This document shows positions 11,358 through 38,831 of a DNA stretch of 38,831 nt, piece by piece. Origin of the DNA: an uncultured Erysipelotrichaceae bacterium (lineage in GTDB: Bacteria; Bacillota_I; Bacilli_A; RFN20; CAG-826). Positions within the stretch are counted from its first letter, which is position 1. Each line of letters opens with the position of its first letter. Location of the stretch: NCBI GenBank assembly GCA_902803285.1, contig CADCPC010000041.1, positions 1-38,831 of the forward strand, written 5' to 3'. The notes under the pieces are model-generated. The model made no database searches, was not told the origin of the DNA, and was given only the letters and a program-made list of their open reading frames with translations. The translations under genes and the position numbers were made by a program.

Positions 11358-12467
11358 CTAGCTCTTTAAGAAGTTAGGAATGATGCTATCTTCTTCAAAA
11401 TTACGCTCTTTTTCTCTTTCAGCAGTATCGCTAAGTTTGACTTCAAGAGCTTCAGCTTCAACTGGTTTAACTGGTTGGCTAACAGTTGGGACTGTGAAAT
11501 CGACATCATTTTCAAAATCACTTGCAATCACGCTAACAAACATTTCATCAGTTAAGCGGTCGTTAATTGACATACCAAACTTGATATCTAAATCACCACC
11601 CGCTGCTTCAATGAGTAGGTTAACACACTCCTGTGCTTCAAATAAGCTAACTTGTGGTCCGCAGGTAATGGCAACAACCGCTCTTCTAGCACCTTGAATG
11701 CCATTTTCAATTAGTGAGCAAGTCATTGCACCCATAGCAGCATCTTTTGCTCTATTAGGTCCGCTACCAGAACCATAGCCGATTAATCCAACACCAGATT
11801 TCCATAATGTGTTTTTCACATCAGCAAAATCAAGATTAATAATTGCTGGCAAGCAAATTAAATTAACGACCGTTCTTACGGATTGAGCTAAGATAGCATC
11901 TGCGTTTTGGAATGCAGTTCCAATCAAAGCGTTAGAATCATTGAGTAACAATTTATCATTAGATACAACGATTAATGAATCGACTTCTGCTTTAAGATCA
12001 TTTAATCCTTTAATAGAATTTAAAATTCTATTTTTTCCTTCAAAAGTGAATGGTCTAGTAACAATGGCCACTACTAAGATATCTCTACCTTCGATACTTT
12101 TAGCAATCTTTGCGATTACTGGAGCAGCACCTGTACCTGTGCCTCCACCCATACCTGCAGCAATAAAGACCATGTTTGCATCTTTAACGATATCTCTAAT
12201 TTTATCAGCGCTAGCTTCTGCAGCTTCTTTTCCACATTTAGGATCACCACCAGCGCCTAATCCACCAGTTAGTTCTTCGCCAAGAATAATTCTATTAGGA
12301 GCTTTGGAAGTTCCAAGGGCTTGGATATCAGTATTCGCAACATAGAATTCAACGTTAGGAATTTCTTCATCAATCATACGATTGACTGCATTATTTCCAG
12401 CACCACCAACACCGATAACTACGATTTTTGCTGCTGGTTCAAAATTGTCTGAGTAAAAGTTTTCCAT
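11358..12467 (-). CDS. ftsZ: Cell division GTPase FtsZ
   Basis: A tubulin homologue of 369 residues that polymerises into the division ring. It has GVGGAGNNAVNRM (about 19-31), the tubulin signature GMGGGTGTGAAPVIA with GGGTGTG at 107-113, and the T7 loop INLDFADVKNTL. The C-terminal conserved peptide is intact: the protein ends DSIIPNFLKS, matching the D-x-I-P-x-F-L core that binds FtsA in other bacteria. An acidic linker of about 45 residues precedes it. The start has AAAAGGAGATAAAAC upstream, and it follows ftsA by 13 bp in the same unit. Confidence 0.97.
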   Translation of the reverse strand: MENFYSDNFEPAAKIVVIGVGGAGNNAVNRMIDEEIPNVEFYVANTDIQALGTSKAPNRIILGEELTGGLGAGGDPKCGKEAAEASADKIRDIVKDANMVFIAAGMGGGTGTGAAPVIAKIAKSIEGRDILVVAIVTRPFTFEGKNRILNSIKGLNDLKAEVDSLIVVSNDKLLLNDSNALIGTAFQNADAILAQSVRTVVNLICLPAIINLDFADVKNTLWKSGVGLIGYGSGSGPNRAKDAAMGAMTCSLIENGIQGARRAVVAITCGPQVSLFEAQECVNLLIEAAGGDLDIKFGMSINDRLTDEMFVSVIASDFENDVDFTVPTVSQPVKPVEAEALEVKLSDTAEREKERNFEEDSIIPNFLKS

Positions 12468-12480
12468 GTTTTATCTCCTT

Positions 12481-13671
12481 TTATTCTTCTCTATTAACTG
12501 GGGTTGATGAAGAATTGATATCTTCAACAATGCCTGGGTGCTTTGTGTGCACCGCGATTGCGCCTAATACGGCTAGTAAACTGGTATCTCTTGCACCGAT
12601 GGTTTGAGGAGTGACAAGAGCAATATTTTCGTTTTGATATTTAGATTTTAAGTAATCTAATAATCCGTGTAACTTAGATCCGCCACCAACAAGAATGATT
12701 GGCAAGTCTTTGTAAGTTCCAACTTGGTATAATGAACATAATTGTTCCATTGAAACTTTGGCTAATCCTGCAAATTTATCAATTGCCTCAGCAATAATAC
12801 TATTTAATTCTTTGCCATAATGTTTTTTGCCATCTACTGAATCAATGGCAATTGGATATGCAAATTTCATTTCTCTAGTATCATAACCAAAGATTTTTTT
12901 AATCTTTTCTGCTTCGTTTTCATTGATGTTGAAGCATTCAATGATTCTTTCAGTGATTGTTTCTCCGCCCCACACAAAACTACGTGTTGCTACTAATCCG
13001 TTATCTCCAATAAGAGAAACAGAAGTTGTATTTGCACCGATATCAATTAAGAAATATTTTTTTGGAATATTGTGATATGTAGATAAGATTTCACTAACAG
13101 CATAGCTGGAAACAACTTTATGAGAGATTTTTATTCCTGCTCTTTCAAAGACTTCGCTGAAATCGCTGTTAATCTTCTTAGGAAGAGTAAAGACATTAGC
13201 CTTCACATCAATTGAGCGGGTGATTTTGCCAATTGGAGGAACTGCGTATCTTTCACCATTCTCTAAAGCAAATGATTCGGGAATGATATCAATTAATTCG
13301 TTATTAACAGGAAGCTTCTTGTTAGAAATAATGCTATAGATGTTAACGATATCTTGATATCCGACAATCTTTTCTCTAGAGATGACGCTAGTTAATTGGC
13401 TAGTTGAATAAACTTCTAATCCATAAGGAGGTAGTACTACAACTGCTTCGTCGATGAGTTTATTGATTTGATATGATTCGTCTTCAATAGGGTTTAGTTT
13501 AGTTAAAGCCGCAACTAGTCCATCTTTATCTTTGATGGCACCATTTTCTAATAATCCATTAATTGGAACTTTTTTCACATAAGAAACAGAGACTTTGCCA
13601 TCAAGATAGTCTCCGATTACTAATTTTATGAATTTATGTGATATTTCTATGACATTGACCGAATTTTTCAT
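12481..13671 (-). CDS. ftsA: Cell division protein FtsA
   Basis: An actin-like ATPase of 396 residues that tethers FtsZ filaments to the membrane in other bacteria. Actin-fold phosphate loops are seen at YFLIDIGANTTSVSLIGDNG and ILVGGGSKLHGLLDYLKS, with an SHS2/1C region between the first two blocks. The C-terminus (GAIAVHTKHPGIVEDINSSS followed by TPVNREE) is short and polar and does not show the amphipathic membrane-targeting helix expected at the end of FtsA. The ATG has no Shine-Dalgarno; a TTGTTA-N17-TAAAAT promoter ends six bases before it, so the mRNA is probably leaderless. It is cotranscribed with ftsZ. Confidence 0.93.
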   Translation of the reverse strand: MKNSVNVIEISHKFIKLVIGDYLDGKVSVSYVKKVPINGLLENGAIKDKDGLVAALTKLNPIEDESYQINKLIDEAVVVLPPYGLEVYSTSQLTSVISREKIVGYQDIVNIYSIISNKKLPVNNELIDIIPESFALENGERYAVPPIGKITRSIDVKANVFTLPKKINSDFSEVFERAGIKISHKVVSSYAVSEILSTYHNIPKKYFLIDIGANTTSVSLIGDNGLVATRSFVWGGETITERIIECFNINENEAEKIKKIFGYDTREMKFAYPIAIDSVDGKKHYGKELNSIIAEAIDKFAGLAKVSMEQLCSLYQVGTYKDLPIILVGGGSKLHGLLDYLKSKYQNENIALVTPQTIGARDTSLLAVLGAIAVHTKHPGIVEDINSSSTPVNREE

Positions 13672-13677
13672 GCAAAC

Positions 13678-13706
13678 ATTTTAATATATTATGGTGGTAT
13701 TAACAA
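13678..13706 (-). promoter_or_regulatory. Promoter of ftsA-ftsZ, predicted leaderless start
   Basis: Minus strand TTGTTA (13701-13706), exactly 17 bp, TAAAAT (13678-13683), then six bases and the ftsA ATG (13671). Initiation at the usual distance from the -10 would begin the RNA at or next to the start codon. It lies downstream of the terminator of the mraZ-rsmH unit, so ftsA-ftsZ is driven separately. Confidence 0.6.
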
Positions 13707-13731
13707 TATAATTTGTTAAAAAGGAGATAAG

Positions 13732-13760
13732 AAAAAGAAGCGGGTGACTAGTCCGCTTCT
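13732..13760 (-). terminator. Intrinsic terminator of the mraZ-rsmH-small protein unit
   Basis: An eight-base stem AGAAGCGG/CCGCTTCT (13736-13743 and 13753-13760) encloses a 9-nt loop containing ACTAGT and is followed on the minus strand by TTTTTCTT. Confidence 0.88.
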
Positions 13761-13781
13761 CTATAAAGGGGTTTATTTGCT

Positions 13782-14024
13782 TTATTCAAATGATCTAAGT
13801 TGGTTGTTTTCAGCAGCATCACTAGATTTGACTTCGGTTTTTTCTTCCACTGCTTCTTCGCTTGCTAATGTTGGTACACGCTCACCTTTATTGATTGATA
13901 TGTAGGTTGGAATAGTAACTGCAAGAGCAAAGACGAAAATGCCTAATGAAGTGAACGCTAAATTACGAGCAACCAAAGATAATTTGCTCTTATGATGACA
14001 ATATAATTTGTTTCTCATTTTCAT
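13782..14024 (-). CDS. Small single-pass membrane protein in the ftsL position
   Basis: An 80-residue protein: a basic N-terminal cytoplasmic segment (MKMRNKLYCHHKSKLSLVAR), one membrane helix at about residues 22-43 (LAFTSLGIFVFALAVTIP), and an acidic extracellular tail of about 35 residues. It lies between rsmH and ftsA, where Firmicutes carry ftsL, and has FtsL-like size and orientation, but no leucine-zipper coiled coil can be seen in the tail. I do not recognise the sequence itself. A good AAAGGAGG lies upstream of the ATG, and the gene follows rsmH by 18 bp. A division role is inferred from position only. Confidence 0.75.
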   Translation of the reverse strand: MKMRNKLYCHHKSKLSLVARNLAFTSLGIFVFALAVTIPTYISINKGERVPTLASEEAVEEKTEVKSSDAAENNQLRSFE

Positions 14025-14042
14025 AGCGTTTCCTCCTTTCAG

Positions 14043-14972
14043 CTATTTTCTTTCGATAATTCTGAGTTTGCTACTAGCGCTACGATGGTTGATCTCTAAT
14101 TCTTCTTTAGAAGGGGAGATAGCCTTCGTATTGACTAGGCGATAATCTGTTTCTTGAGTTGTAAGAGGAAGATCATAACGATTTCCTTCCACAACTGCCA
14201 TTTTCTTGAAAAATTGTTTTACAATTTTATCTTCTCCAGAATGGAATGTTATTACCGCTAATCTTCCACCTGGTTTTAAATGATTTACTGTTTTTTCTAA
14301 AGCGACTTTAAGAACGTTTAGTTCATCATTAACAGCAATTCGTAATGCTTGGAATATTTGTTTAGCAGGGTGTCCTACTTTTTTTAATTCTTTAGCAGGT
14401 TTGCTTCTTTTAATGATGTCAACAAGTTCGAATGTTGTTTCAATTCTCTTGTTTTCACGATATTTACAGATATTTTTAGCGATGCTATAGGAATATTTTT
14501 CTTCACCATAGTCTCTAAATATCTCAAATAATTCTTTTTCAGAATATCCATTAACAATATCTGCGGCAGTTAATGAATTTCTTTGATCCATTCTCATATC
14601 TAATGGTGAATCATATCGATATGAGAATCCTCTTTCTGGATTATCGAATTGAGGAGAAGAAACTCCTAAGTCCATCAATATTCCATCGACTTTATCAATG
14701 TTTAATCCTTTTAGGATTTCGTCGATATTTACAAAGTTAGATCTCACTATTTTGAAGTTGTCACTAACTTTAGATAATCTTGCAGTGCTTTCAATAATCG
14801 CGGTTTCATCTTGATCCACCCCGATTAGTAGTCCATTACTAGATAATCTTTTTAATATTTGTTCACTATGGCCACCTCTTCCAATGGTAAGGTCGACATA
14901 GATTCCATCTTTTTTAATGTTTAATCCTTCAATTACTTCGCTAAGAAGTACTGGGATATGTTGCTCAGCCAT
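14043..14972 (-). CDS. rsmH: 16S rRNA (cytosine-1402 N4) methyltransferase
   Basis: A SAM-dependent methyltransferase (MraW/RsmH) of 309 residues modifying C1402 in the ribosomal P site. The N-terminus HIPVLLSEVIEGLNI and the SAM-binding loop YVDLTIGRGGHSEQIL are characteristic. Further family blocks are ILMDLGVSSPQFDNPERGFS and RLAVITFHSGEDKIVKQFF, and it ends RSASSKLRIIERK. The start overlaps mraZ by 8 nt, as in most bacteria. It belongs to the mraZ-rsmH-small protein unit that ends at the terminator near 13745. Confidence 0.96.
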   Translation of the reverse strand: MAEQHIPVLLSEVIEGLNIKKDGIYVDLTIGRGGHSEQILKRLSSNGLLIGVDQDETAIIESTARLSKVSDNFKIVRSNFVNIDEILKGLNIDKVDGILMDLGVSSPQFDNPERGFSYRYDSPLDMRMDQRNSLTAADIVNGYSEKELFEIFRDYGEEKYSYSIAKNICKYRENKRIETTFELVDIIKRSKPAKELKKVGHPAKQIFQALRIAVNDELNVLKVALEKTVNHLKPGGRLAVITFHSGEDKIVKQFFKKMAVVEGNRYDLPLTTQETDYRLVNTKAISPSKEELEINHRSASSKLRIIERK

Positions 14973-15402
14973 TGATTTTCACCAATTTATCAGCGATTTC
15001 TTCAAATGCTGCGCTATTTTTATTTTCGTAATCTAAATATGATTTTTTATCCCAAACTTCGAAATGATTGCCCACTCCAATTACCACTACTTCTCTAGAA
15101 ATTTCATATTTTTCTAAGATAGTGACTGGGATTTGAATTCTTCCTAATTTATCAACGTTGAGTTGAGTAACGCTAGACAAGAGAGCACGGATGTAATTTC
15201 TTGCGTTCTTATCGTTATAGGAATATTCACCTAACTCTTTATAAAGAGTTTGGAAAGCGGTTTCATTATAGATAGCTAAACAACCATCAAATCCTCTGAG
15301 AACATATAAAGGAGATCCGCTTGATAAACCTTCTCTAAGTTTTGAAGGAATCATCAATCTTCCTTTATCGTCTAAATTATGTTCATAGTAACCAAAATAC
15401 AT
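14965..15402 (-). CDS. mraZ: Transcriptional regulator MraZ
   Basis: A DNA-binding regulator of the division cluster, 145 residues, with two SpoVT/AbrB-like half-domains: YYEHNLDDKGRLMIPSKLRE at the N-terminus and VDKLGRIQIPVTILEKYEIS at about 80-100. The ATG at 15402 gives MYFGYYEHNLDD, matching the M-F-x-G-x-Y-x-H-x-(L/I)-D-x-K-G-R start of relatives; the GTG at 15411 falls inside the predicted operator. Repeats resembling the MraZ box lie immediately upstream, so autoregulation is likely. Confidence 0.95.
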   Translation of the reverse strand: MYFGYYEHNLDDKGRLMIPSKLREGLSSGSPLYVLRGFDGCLAIYNETAFQTLYKELGEYSYNDKNARNYIRALLSSVTQLNVDKLGRIQIPVTILEKYEISREVVVIGVGNHFEVWDKKSYLDYENKNSAAFEEIADKLVKING

Positions 15403-15405
15403 ATT

Positions 15406-15435
15406 TACCACTTTTTACCGTATTTCTACCACTTT
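15406..15435 (-). promoter_or_regulatory. Probable MraZ-binding repeats
   Basis: On the minus strand three copies of a G-x-G-G-T-A-type unit follow one another at 10-11 bp: AAAGTGGTAG, AAATACGGTA (degenerate) and AAAAGTGGTA, ending 3 bp before the mraZ ATG. Helical phasing and the AAAGTGG core match what is known of MraZ sites in Mollicutes. The array lies downstream of the predicted -10, which favours repression. Confidence 0.65.
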
Positions 15436-36214: not shown

Positions 36215-36240
36215 AAAAAGCCCTCTTACTGAAGAGAGCT
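36215..36240 (-). terminator. Intrinsic terminator of the first surface-protein gene
   Basis: AGCTCTCTT-CAGT-AAGAGGGCT on the minus strand (36240-36219, one G-U pair) is followed by TTTTTATTG. It lies 7 bp after the stop codon. Confidence 0.88.
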
Positions 36241-36246
36241 CATATT

Positions 36247-37392
36247 TTATTTCTTTTTGAAGATTGCGATTAAATCTGCGAATGATTTCTTTTTGATAAC
36301 AAACCAGAAGATGGAGAATCCACCAACTCCAGCGACTACGACAGAGGCAATAACAATGCCAGCAATTGCACCACCACTTAAACCTTTTTTAACAGGTGCA
36401 GTTGGTTCTACTGGATCAGTTGGATCTGTTGGGTCTGTAGGGGTTTCGGATTCAGTTTTTTTACAAACTGCAATAAATGTCATAGATTCTTGAACATTTT
36501 GAATAACATCTCCTGGATGATAAATTTGTTCATCACATTCCCAGTGAGAGAATTCATATCCTTCTGGAGGATAGATGCCATCTGGTTCAGGAACAACAAA
36601 ATCCTGTCCGATTTCCACTAAGATTTCCGCCATATGACCAGTCATATCGCCATTTTCAAAGTACATGTATGCAGTAGTGAGTTCTTGACCAGCCCAGAAC
36701 AATTCAAATTCACTGCTGATTAAATCATCAATTTCTGTATTATCAATTCTAATTCTATACATTGCACGGAATGTTTCTTCTCTAACCAGTGTTGTGGATA
36801 GCATAGTGAAATCTTCAACACCAGGTAGCGATTTCTCAACTGTCCAATCTTTTTCTCCTTCTTCGCGATATTCAACATAATGAGTTAAACCAGTTGTGTC
36901 ATAGTTTAAACGCCATTCAAGAATGACTTCAATTCCAGCGGTAACCGAATGAGAATCTGGTTCAATTTCAAAAGAAGGAATCACAGGTTCTTCCCACCAA
37001 ACAGTAAAATTTCTGCTATCTAAGCTTTGTATAGAGCCATTAAAGGTTTCAATTGAATAAGTATAGAAACCATATCCCTCTGGATTAGGGCATTCTATCT
37101 CTACTTCAAACACTATTTCTGGTACTTGTGGGTCTTCAAAGGTTACAGGAGTAAGATAAATCCACTCCGATATAGAAGTATCGACATATTTAACAATATA
37201 TTTATCAATAACATAGTTAAGAGAGAAAGTTACTGTTGCTTTTTCTCCACATCCAACTACAACGTCTTCTGGCTCGGTAATAAAAACAGGCCAATCATCA
37301 GCGTGAGTTTCTTTAACTGGATTATTAGCAAAAGTTAATCCACTTCCTACCATTAAAGAGAGTAAACCAAGTACACATAAAGTCTTTTTCAT
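36247..37392 (-). CDS. Secreted, C-terminally membrane-anchored protein with Ig-like modules
   Basis: A 381-residue surface protein. Signal peptide MKKTLCVLGLLSLMVGSGLT is followed by two related Ig-like modules of about 100 residues: compare ITEPEDVVVGCGEK and FEIEPDSHSVTAGIE, each followed by a Leu-Asn-Tyr strand and a Trp. A third module (about 240-310) has the G-Y-x-F-x-x-W pattern of InlB B-repeats. A PTDPTDPTDP linker leads to one membrane helix beginning SGGAIAGIVIASVVVAG and a basic tail KKKSFADLIAIFKKK. AGAGGTG is spaced six bases from the ATG at 37392; a GTG at 37401 overlaps it and is unlikely. Candidate promoter TTGTTA-N16-TATATA upstream. The function is unknown; an adhesin is possible. 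Confidence 0.8.
   Translation of the reverse strand: MKKTLCVLGLLSLMVGSGLTFANNPVKETHADDWPVFITEPEDVVVGCGEKATVTFSLNYVIDKYIVKYVDTSISEWIYLTPVTFEDPQVPEIVFEVEIECPNPEGYGFYTYSIETFNGSIQSLDSRNFTVWWEEPVIPSFEIEPDSHSVTAGIEVILEWRLNYDTTGLTHYVEYREEGEKDWTVEKSLPGVEDFTMLSTTLVREETFRAMYRIRIDNTEIDDLISSEFELFWAGQELTTAYMYFENGDMTGHMAEILVEIGQDFVVPEPDGIYPPEGYEFSHWECDEQIYHPGDVIQNVQESMTFIAVCKKTESETPTDPTDPTDPVEPTAPVKKGLSGGAIAGIVIASVVVAGVGGFSIFWFVIKKKSFADLIAIFKKK
36250..36387 (-). repeat. Anchor-coding repeat, copy 1
   Basis: DNA encoding the last 45 or so residues of the first surface protein; highly similar base for base (my eye estimate about 80%) to 37491-37628. It encodes the SGGAIAGI membrane helix and the WFVIKKKSFADLIA tail. 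Confidence 0.75.
36404..36439 (-). repeat. 9-bp tandem repeats coding for a (Pro-Thr-Asp) linker
   Basis: Four imperfect 9-bp units, with GGATCAGTT, GGATCTGTT and GGGTCTGTA on the plus strand, encode PTDPTDPTDP-like sequence just before the membrane anchor. Copy number could vary without breaking the frame. Confidence 0.7.
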
Positions 37393-37444
37393 AAGAAACA
37401 CCTCTTTATATAGTATAGCCTAAAACATTAACAAAATAGCAACT

Positions 37445-37465
37445 AAAAAGACATCCGAAGATGCC
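37445..37465 (-). terminator. Intrinsic terminator with a UUCG tetraloop after the second surface gene
   Basis: GGCATC-TTCG-GATGTC on the minus strand (37465-37450; one G-U pair, closing C-G around the UUCG tetraloop) is followed by TTTTTAG. It lies 22 bp after the stop. Confidence 0.87.
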
Positions 37466-37487
37466 TTAATAGAATAATTGGTTGTTT

Positions 37488-38831
37488 TCATTTCTTTTTG
37501 AAAACTGCAATTAAGTCTGCAAATGATTTCTTTTTTATAACAAACCAAACAAGAGCAAATCCACCAATACCAGCTACTAAAATAGAAGCGATAATGATAC
37601 CGGCGATTGCTCCACCACTGAGTCCGTTATTAGTTGGTGTAACTGGTGGTTCAGGTGGAACGATCTTCTCACTAACATTAATTTTATATGTTGCAGTTTT
37701 TGTTACTTCGTTTTCTGTATAAGTAACTGTTATGGTCTTTTCTCCTGGTGTAGACATATCTGGAACAGAAACTACATAACCAGTAACAACTTTGTCAGCT
37801 CCACCGTTTGTGTAATGAGCGGTAACGACCAAGCCATCGTAAGAGAAGGTATCTCCAACTTCGAATTCGGTCTTGTATGTACCAGATAAAGTAATTGAAT
37901 CTAGCTCAGGGGCTGAAATAAGTTTATATGTTGCTGTAACAGTAACATTGCCTTCTATCATAGTAAATGTTGTAGTTTCACTATTAGCATCAGCAAATGT
38001 AATTCCGCTACTGGATACCCATTTATCAAAGACATAGCCATCTTCAGCAGGATCAGCGGTAATAGTAATAACTGTTCCTGCAACTGCGGTAACTGGATTA
38101 GCAGTACCTTTATTAACAGTTACGGAATATAGAACTGGAGCGTTATATTCATTAACCACTACATTAGCGATTTCACCAGCGTTACGAGTGCTTGTTTCTT
38201 TAATACGAACATTATATGTTCCTGGGGCTAATCCAGTAATATCACTACCAGTGCCATCAATCCAATCTGATGCTGAACTTAATTTATATTCCATATCAGT
38301 GGTAACACCTTTAAGTCCACCATCGTTATTGTCTTCAGTTGTACATGCTGTTGCGGTAATTCCTGTTGGAGCATCTGGTCCATCAGCTTTAGAAATAGAA
38401 TCGCTAGCAGTACCAACAATAGAGCCAGTTTCAACTGAACTAGTAACTACTACACTTAATGTATATCCAATATCGTTTTCTGTAACTAAGTAAGTGCTAC
38501 TAGTAGCGCCACTAATAGGTTCACCATTTCTTCTCCATTGATATGAGAGTGAACCGGTATTATTTGTATCTGTAACACTAGCGGTTAAGGTCTCATGATA
38601 TTTTAATGATCCAGTGATACTTACTGTTCCAGTAAGAGCAACAGGGGCATCTTCCCAAATAGCATCAAATGTTTGGAAGTCACGATTATGAATGATTTCA
38701 AAGTCATCACCAGGTTGACATTTTATTGAATATCCTTGCAATTGCCAACATTTAAATCGTTTACCAGCAGGAGGTGTAAAAGTGCAAGTTGGTAGTTGTA
38801 TTGTACATATTCTTCCACCATAAAAATGCAT
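37488..38831 (-). CDS. Surface protein with InlB-like and Ig-like modules, C-terminal part (partial)
   Basis: The last 447 residues of a larger protein open at the right edge; the Met at the very end is unlikely to be the true start, as no signal peptide follows. Modules in order: an InlB-type repeat (about 10-57, ending FDAIWED), an Ig-like domain (60-148, with LSYQWRRNGEPISGATSSTY), a further beta domain (150-232, with ITGLAPGTYNVRIKE), a second InlB-type repeat (235-305, YVFDKW), a bacterial Ig-like Big_3-type domain (308-392), then a short Pro-rich linker and the same membrane anchor as the neighbouring gene (SGGAIAGI, then WFVIKKKSFADLIAVFKKK). Probably an adhesin-like surface protein; function unknown. 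Confidence 0.82.
   Translation of the reverse strand: MHFYGGRICTIQLPTCTFTPPAGKRFKCWQLQGYSIKCQPGDDFEIIHNRDFQTFDAIWEDAPVALTGTVSITGSLKYHETLTASVTDTNNTGSLSYQWRRNGEPISGATSSTYLVTENDIGYTLSVVVTSSVETGSIVGTASDSISKADGPDAPTGITATACTTEDNNDGGLKGVTTDMEYKLSSASDWIDGTGSDITGLAPGTYNVRIKETSTRNAGEIANVVVNEYNAPVLYSVTVNKGTANPVTAVAGTVITITADPAEDGYVFDKWVSSSGITFADANSETTTFTMIEGNVTVTATYKLISAPELDSITLSGTYKTEFEVGDTFSYDGLVVTAHYTNGGADKVVTGYVVSVPDMSTPGEKTITVTYTENEVTKTATYKINVSEKIVPPEPPVTPTNNGLSGGAIAGIIIASILVAGIGGFALVWFVIKKKSFADLIAVFKKK
37491..37628 (-). repeat. Anchor-coding repeat, copy 2
   Basis: Copy of the anchor-coding segment at 36250-36387, in the same orientation, at the 3' end of the second surface gene. A direct repeat 1,241 bp apart, so homologous recombination could swap ectodomains or delete one gene. 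Confidence 0.75.

Follow-up and report, generated by a model that had tools for sequence, protein, structure and literature searches.

A conserved C-terminal module, probably an exchangeable membrane anchor, on surface proteins of mostly sortase-less gut Firmicutes

Two neighbouring genes and their common C-terminal module

The window analysed here is the whole of contig C41 (CADCPC010000041.1; 38,831 nucleotides) of an uncultured Erysipelotrichaceae bacterium, whose assembled genome (GCA_902803285.1) comprises 1.04 Mb in 73 contigs. At one end of the window, two neighbouring genes for putative surface proteins, protein 1 and protein 2, end in the same module of 45 residues, with 82% protein identity between the copies (Table 1); protein 2 is incomplete, because its gene runs past the end of the contig. 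It had been predicted from the sequence alone that the two neighbours share a C-terminal module, and this proved correct, the module belonging to a family with varied ectodomains. A Pro/Thr/Asp-rich linker precedes the helix, as had also been noted. The consensus reads GL-x-x-GAI-x-GI...GGF-x-x-x-WFVIKKK-[ST]-[FW]-A-D-[LF]-x-A-x-F-KKK, that is, a Gly/Ala-rich, putatively membrane-spanning helix, then WFVIKKK, then [ST][FW]AD[LF]xAxFKKK at the exact C-terminus, where the last residue abuts the stop codon. Among the 65 tails of length 45 (out of 92 distinct ones, 27 of other lengths being left out), G5, I10, W27, F28 and K32 are invariant, and near-invariant positions are found both in the N-terminal part (L2 in 63, A6 in 63, G9 in 58) and in the tail (D37 in 60, F42 in 59, K43 in 62).

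A profile built from nine tails matched the two window modules with 87.2 and 91 bits (E 7e-25 and 5e-26, searched in one genome), scores that are not independent since both sequences are in the profile. Independent evidence came from a search with the first tail alone, which retrieved two further copies elsewhere in the genome (E 1e-14 and 2e-14), making four in all. The original prediction that the proteins are otherwise different holds for protein 1, whose ectodomain has no Pfam match and no PDB sequence match at E <= 1. InlB-type repeat ectodomains are common to many relatives. In protein 2 these are Flg_new_2 (InlB B-repeat-like, 3.9e-13) and Big_3 (5.7e-07), and in 48 proteins scanned (the two window proteins and 46 of 53 eligible open reading frames, ORFs) Flg_new and Flg_new_2 occur 21 times each, Big_3 eight times, Cthe_2159 three times and Big_2 twice, with single ectodomains of LRR, PKD and putative Ig type. 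Clustering at 1e-5 placed 103 of 111 ectodomains in one component, so they vary less than one would first suppose from the tail family.

Table 1. Features of the two window genes, and further anchors in the same genome
Feature	Position	Strand	Remarks
Protein 1	36247..37401	minus	ORF, 384 aa, complete; predicted exported, orphan beta-rich ectodomain, module at end
Protein 2	37488..38831	minus	ORF, at least 447 aa; 5' end beyond contig; module at end
Signal-peptide-like hydrophobic N-terminus, protein 1 (from internal ATG)	37327..37392	minus	Read from sequence; helix 3-23 in model
Pro/Thr/Asp-rich linker, protein 1	36385..36456	minus	Sequence
Pro-rich linker, protein 2	37626..37673	minus	Sequence
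Putative anchor module, protein 1, GLSGGAIAGIVIASVVVAGVGGFSIFWFVIKKKSFADLIAIFKKK	36250..36384	minus	Sequence and profile search
Putative anchor module, protein 2, GLSGGAIAGIIIASILVAGIGGFALVWFVIKKKSFADLIAVFKKK	37491..37625	minus	Sequence and profile search
Predicted membrane helix, protein 1, residues 343-371	36289..36375	minus	AlphaFold; local pLDDT about 58-72 (blocks of ten)
Conserved, putatively cytoplasmic tail, protein 1, KKKSFADLIAIFKKK	36250..36294	minus	Predicted second short helix, residues 374-382 (model)
Conserved, putatively cytoplasmic tail, protein 2, KKKSFADLIAVFKKK	37491..37535	minus	Sequence comparison
Direct-repeat copy 1	36245..36406	minus	162 nt, 76%
Direct-repeat copy 2	37486..37647	minus	162 nt, 76%
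Terminator hairpin, gene 1	36218..36241	minus	Sequence differs from conserved C7/C17 terminator
Terminator hairpin, gene 2	37448..37467	minus	Hairpin; other than conserved family terminator
SLTAIGGYFFLRKRKE-like anchor class on large surface proteins, own genome	L194:12355-15507, L195:2798-6757, L195:7674-8348

Distribution and conservation of the tail

A full-length tail was found in 19 of the 279 genomes of the order, 17 of them belonging to the window's family and the remaining two to one further family each. The window's genus is represented by 19 genomes, 6 of which (own genome counted) have the tail, and more than one full tail was present within the order only in G000 (four) and G198 (two). 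Among named genomes, a scan yielded 105 confirmed relatives. The 79 loci kept comprise 64 titled as Clostridia, Clostridiales or Oscillospiraceae (gut metagenome-assembled genomes), 12 as Bacilli, Bacillales or Erysipelotrichaceae, two as unnamed bacteria and one as Methanosphaera (probably mis-binned). The 45 genomes behind these loci contain 102 matches, part of which span the membrane part alone, with one to eight per genome and two or more in 27 genomes, and tandem runs of tail genes are common (e.g. four on one contig, L046, L069/L114). Prevalence is known for the order, the class and phylum surveys having stopped short of the Clostridia-type genomes that hold most copies. Since the scan used two sequence patterns, one for the membrane part and one for the tail, conservation inside these patterns is partly selected. 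Of 36 tails that the membrane pattern alone had fetched, 32 carry the cytoplasmic motif as well (loose pattern), and the membrane part is present in 13 of the 14 fetched only through the tail pattern; this control used the 92 distinct tails of the named loci, after ORFs below 40 bits had been dropped (117 of 139 kept, 22 out). A lack of other proteins with the tail had been singled out beforehand as the outcome that would leave a simple recent duplication; such proteins were found in the genome, in the order and in the named loci, so simple duplication is not the explanation. Spread by phage or plasmid was rejected, with no match among 72,556 plasmid records and 50,697 phage records. The IMG/VR contig L174 has a tail gene beside an insertion-sequence-like transposase and surface proteins; since no phage gene was recognised in the 10 kb examined, it was not counted as viral and is probably bacterial DNA.

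For six proteins with alignable ectodomains, giving 15 pairwise comparisons, the nonsynonymous divergence (dN) of the last 15 residues was 0.00-0.20, compared with 0.09-0.92 for the ectodomain; the tail values come from 15 codons, so counts are small, and most pairs have a large or saturated synonymous divergence (dS). Judging from these comparisons, the putatively cytoplasmic tail appears to be under purifying selection, and to be kept too faithfully for a mere stop signal. An in-genome control points the same way. In 310 kb of the genome a filter found 14 ORFs with a C-terminal hydrophobic stretch, four of which are the tail proteins, while three share a SLTAIGGYFFLRKRKE-like anchor with a short variable basic end (Table 1) and others have plain KKKK or RRKR ends; of the SLTAIGGYFFLRKRKE-like anchors, the two scanned gave no NCBIfam match over the cut-off. 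As these other anchors have short variable basic ends, this cell can evidently anchor proteins without a long conserved tail, which upholds the original view that the tail is more conserved than stop-transfer needs.

Exchange of the 3' end among surface-protein genes

The original prediction also described the coding DNA of the two modules as a direct repeat that allows ectodomains to be exchanged. The repeat is real (Table 1), and exchange is supported among relatives, but the use of the window repeat as evidence of it is not. Over the module, the two window genes have 77.8% DNA identity; they agree at 24 of 45 third codon positions, and of the 37 codons with identical amino acids 21 match, against 16.2 expected from codon usage alone; since this synonymous agreement hardly exceeds the expectation, the window repeat is little beyond a shadow of the protein. 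Recent tandem duplication of one gene within the genome, although the genes are adjacent and share the repeat, is refuted, given their unrelated ectodomains, the poor agreement at third positions and the many relatives elsewhere; we give it practically no credence.

Between other copies, DNA similarity is limited to the short linker, the tail and about 50 nt beyond, as in the C17 and C7 genes of the own genome (84.9% over 225 nt) or C7 and G001 (88.7% over 230 nt). Changed codons at identical residues were compared between tail and ectodomain in 17 pairs (p uncorrected). The tail was closer than the ectodomain in some pairs, including C7-G171 (3/41 versus 52/117, p 7e-6) and C7-G001 (4/41 versus 32/72, p 1.2e-4), and more distant in others, including G010-L174 (21/38 versus 58/223, p 5e-4) and P2-G013 (18/36 versus 43/186, p 0.0019), P2 being protein 2. 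Discordance of both kinds is to be expected from module exchange, and the histories of tail and ectodomain are mosaic. Five of the 17 pairs fell under the Bonferroni limit of 0.003, and eight were not significant at 0.05 (P2-G010, P2-G017, G013-L174, C7-G073, C7-G128 and G073-G128 at 0.12-0.29; G010-G013 at 0.053; G198-C17 at 0.052). Moreover, the proteins at L009 and L014 have ectodomains 80% identical over 400 residues and different anchors.

One hairpin follows eight tail genes of the family (C7, C17, G001, G013, G017, G073, G171 and G198; G151 is identical to G001), a 28-nt terminator close to CGCTC-NN-ATAGAAATATGTGGGCG-TTTT (stable folding, z -3.9 to -5.4 in five tested) that occurs downstream of tail genes in several genera (L003, L007, L008, L011, L018, L020, L021, L022, L023). 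It is better conserved than the synonymous sites of the adjoining tail: in G013-G171 and G017-G171, identity is 92-96% over 48 nt, against an agreement of 0.42-0.53 at the tail's third codon positions. It was found nowhere else in 1.03 Mb of collected loci, nor in 310 kb of the own genome beyond two tail genes, and its exact pattern had no match in viral contigs; both window genes carry other terminators. Outside the window pair, tail and terminator thus appear, from these sequence comparisons, to travel as a 3' cassette. An identical 1,935-nt stretch is shared by L008 (G001) and L022 (G151), whose genomes belong to two genera, which may reflect very recent transfer or mis-binning.

These near-identical copies across genera, together with the patchy distribution and the sharing of tail and terminator at the DNA level, would suit a plain stop-transfer anchor with a partnerless tail, whose likeness comes from descent, duplication and horizontal transfer. 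That explanation seems to us rather improbable, since the tail protein is kept although synonymous sites have diverged or saturated in many pairs, the motif is found in both Clostridia and Bacilli, and, in the same genome, short basic tails are free to vary on other anchors.

Host machinery, candidate mechanism and known systems

Sortase (PF04203) was matched in 2 of 60 genomes, both reached via named loci, and not in the own genome; it is missing from 49 of 51 tail-bearing genomes, and 3 of 14 controls match. Rhomboid (PF01694) scored over the cut-off in 2 of 56 genomes, the own genome having none, and is missing from 40 of 42 tail-bearing genomes; all 14 controls match. Exosortase (PF09721) was detected in none of 78 genomes (64 tail-bearing), by a model that matches 1 of 14 controls (M. 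jannaschii), so that distant archaeosortases could escape. None of the 20 genomes tested from the window's family has a penicillin-binding protein (PBP) transpeptidase; 22 of 23 Clostridia-type genomes have one, as do the two genomes tested from the order's other families. The tail is therefore common to wall-less and walled, almost uniformly sortase-less hosts. The original remark that the missing LPXTG is expected without a wall is not supported: carriers include walled hosts, so lack of a wall fails to explain the tail, and sortase absence is the better correlate because the tail often occurs in Clostridia-type genomes that have PBP transpeptidases. Within the window, positions 11358-15411 hold a division cluster, which we take to be mraZ-mraW-ftsA-ftsZ, lacking mur genes, consistent with the PBP absence.

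We consider it somewhat probable that the module holds large adhesin-like proteins of sortase-less Firmicutes in the membrane, as an exchangeable, probably uncleaved type-I anchor with a cytoplasmic helix that is probably partner-bound. A signal peptide would export the protein and the Gly/Ala-rich helix would stop in the membrane, so that the extracellular repeats would be held by the membrane helix without wall attachment. After a kink, the cytoplasmic end of 12-15 residues (KKK-[ST]-[FW]-A-D-[LF]-x-A-x-F-KKK) would form a short second helix. Most likely this end is held against the inner face of the membrane, or a shared partner, cytoplasmic or in the membrane, binds it and thereby retains the proteins or positions them. 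We infer the topology, and with it the anchor function, from the architecture, and the lack of cleavage from enzyme absence together with inner-tail conservation; a dedicated binding partner is hypothesised. Because any ectodomain can precede the anchor, surface-protein genes would swap their 3' ends, which comprise linker, anchor, stop codon and, in certain lineages, the specific terminator hairpin. More tentatively, sortase-less gut Firmicutes, walled and wall-less, might share an undescribed sorting or retention system for surface proteins in which a dedicated partner reads the conserved KKK-[ST][FW]AD[LF]xAxFKKK helix with no extracellular cut, and in which substrates diversify by changing the ectodomain ahead of a mobile anchor-plus-terminator cassette, a wider proposal that we regard as possible and as less likely than the anchor as such.

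Several observations weigh against the anchor explanation. The cytoplasmic 15-mer of protein 2 is just 67-73% identical to those of its relatives, being of SFADLI type where they have the TWADF type (27-33% of positions differ), and its dN/dS is 0.15-0.35 versus three relatives, above 1 versus G160 (dS only 0.14) and undefined versus L174. In pairs with close ectodomains, tail dN slightly exceeds ectodomain dN (P2-G010, 0.18 versus 0.11; P2-G013, 0.16 versus 0.12; P2-L174, 0.18 versus 0.13). Amphipathicity of the tail, judged by its hydrophobic moment, is not significant, the observed value being matched by 48-54% of shuffles for three 15-mers and 9.5% for a fourth, and that of the family-mean columns is reached by 13% of shuffles. 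The second short helix of protein 1 (374-382) is a low-confidence prediction, from a single-sequence AlphaFold model with an overall predicted local distance difference test score (pLDDT) of 39.8 that is unusable outside the C-terminal helices. The tail is patchy in the order, 260 of 279 genomes lacking a full one, and some related anchors keep the membrane helix and lose the tail motif (L059, L030-L041). Among the clustered neighbours of tail genes, mostly regulators, no partner, sorting factor or recurring enzyme was found. As a separate observation, L059, L060 and L062 have the same helix (GGFALYWFVLRKK), with an acidic Glu/Ala-rich cytoplasmic end replacing the FADL motif.

The neighbours suggest regulated expression. 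In eight Clostridia-type loci (L048, L049, L057, L062, L069, L073, L075, L115) a HisKA_7TM-like sensor fused to a LuxR-type helix-turn-helix domain lies upstream of the tail gene, and an orphan uncharacterised protein of about 150 residues (cluster c4) is near the tail gene in six loci, between sensor and tail gene in L048, L049, L057 and L069 and also in L063 and L085. Near the tail gene of the Bacilli locus L100 lie a LuxR-type response regulator and a 7TM sensor, with relatives at L096 and L112.

The module invites comparison with processing signals. According to PMC3237569, LPXTG, PEP-CTERM and GlyGly-CTERM consist of a motif, a helix and a basic end, and the same architecture here, the several members per genome with otherwise unlike ectodomains, the suffix behaviour (L009/L014) and the strongly conserved N-terminal motif (G5, I10, L2, A6, G9) could all indicate a new tripartite CTERM-type signal, in which a membrane enzyme would cut near GLxxGAIxGI and move the ectodomain to lipid, wall or matrix, helix and tail serving for recognition only. 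We regard this as unlikely, because sortase, rhomboid and detectable exosortase families are all but missing, no adjacent enzyme recurs, and conservation of the cytoplasmic end extends to its individual residues, whereas that of the known signals is described in PMC3237569 as only a cluster of basic residues.

An exchangeable, probably uncleaved anchor is kept as the favoured reading, and it differs from each of the known systems compared. No Pfam or NCBIfam model covers the module (44 tails scanned, none convincing), and the literature search returned no full-text match to its motif strings and listed nothing on it under conserved tails or sortase-independent anchoring; for these reasons we place it among the C-terminal anchoring domains, as an uncatalogued variant. 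With LPXTG proteins it shares a C-terminal motif, a hydrophobic helix, a basic end and exported multi-domain surface proteins with exchangeable ectodomains. However, neither window protein has an LPXTG-type motif by inspection, as originally stated, LPXTG_anchor matched 1 of 44 tails (E 0.81), and the family, mostly sortase-less and with a conserved cytoplasmic tail, also lives in hosts without PBPs; membership was rejected for want of both motif and sortase. GlyGly-CTERM proteins likewise have a Gly-rich helix start and several members per genome alike only at the C-terminus, but the tail family belongs to a different phylum, has a longer conserved cytoplasmic tail and mostly lacks rhomboid; with TIGR03501 absent from the NCBIfam matches at E <= 1 for the 44 tails, membership was rejected. 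PEP-CTERM, with exosortase and archaeosortase, has a similar tripartite architecture and sporadic distribution, and was rejected by motif, the family having no Pro-Glu-Pro and 1 of 44 tails a weak PEP_CTERM score (E 0.24). MyrrCad (NF033158), the best recurring NCBIfam match among the 44 tails (E 0.0016), was rejected because none of 29 genomes passed its curated cut-off of 33 bits (best 25.9 bits).

The shared anchor offers a way to find surface proteins in the genomes that carry it, many ruminant-gut Clostridia among them, and gives the search for a partner a concrete form, namely which protein co-distributes with or binds the tail; with it, reshuffling of ectodomain and anchor is seen in uncultured gut bacteria. 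A further parallel in design comes from the variant-specific surface proteins (VSPs) of Giardia, in which varied ectodomains are likewise placed on one conserved helix and cytoplasmic tail. Of 44 tails, 38 matched PF03302 weakly at E <= 1, the best at 2.8e-05 and under the Pfam cut-off where scores are given, and in protein 1 (24.1 bits against a cut-off of 31.4) the C-terminal helix part alone aligns. Giardia is a eukaryote, and its VSPs end in CRGKA according to PMC6115752, whereas the tail family ends in KKK-[ST][FW]ADLxAxFKKK; the likeness is an analogy, likely through convergent helix composition, and not a relationship.

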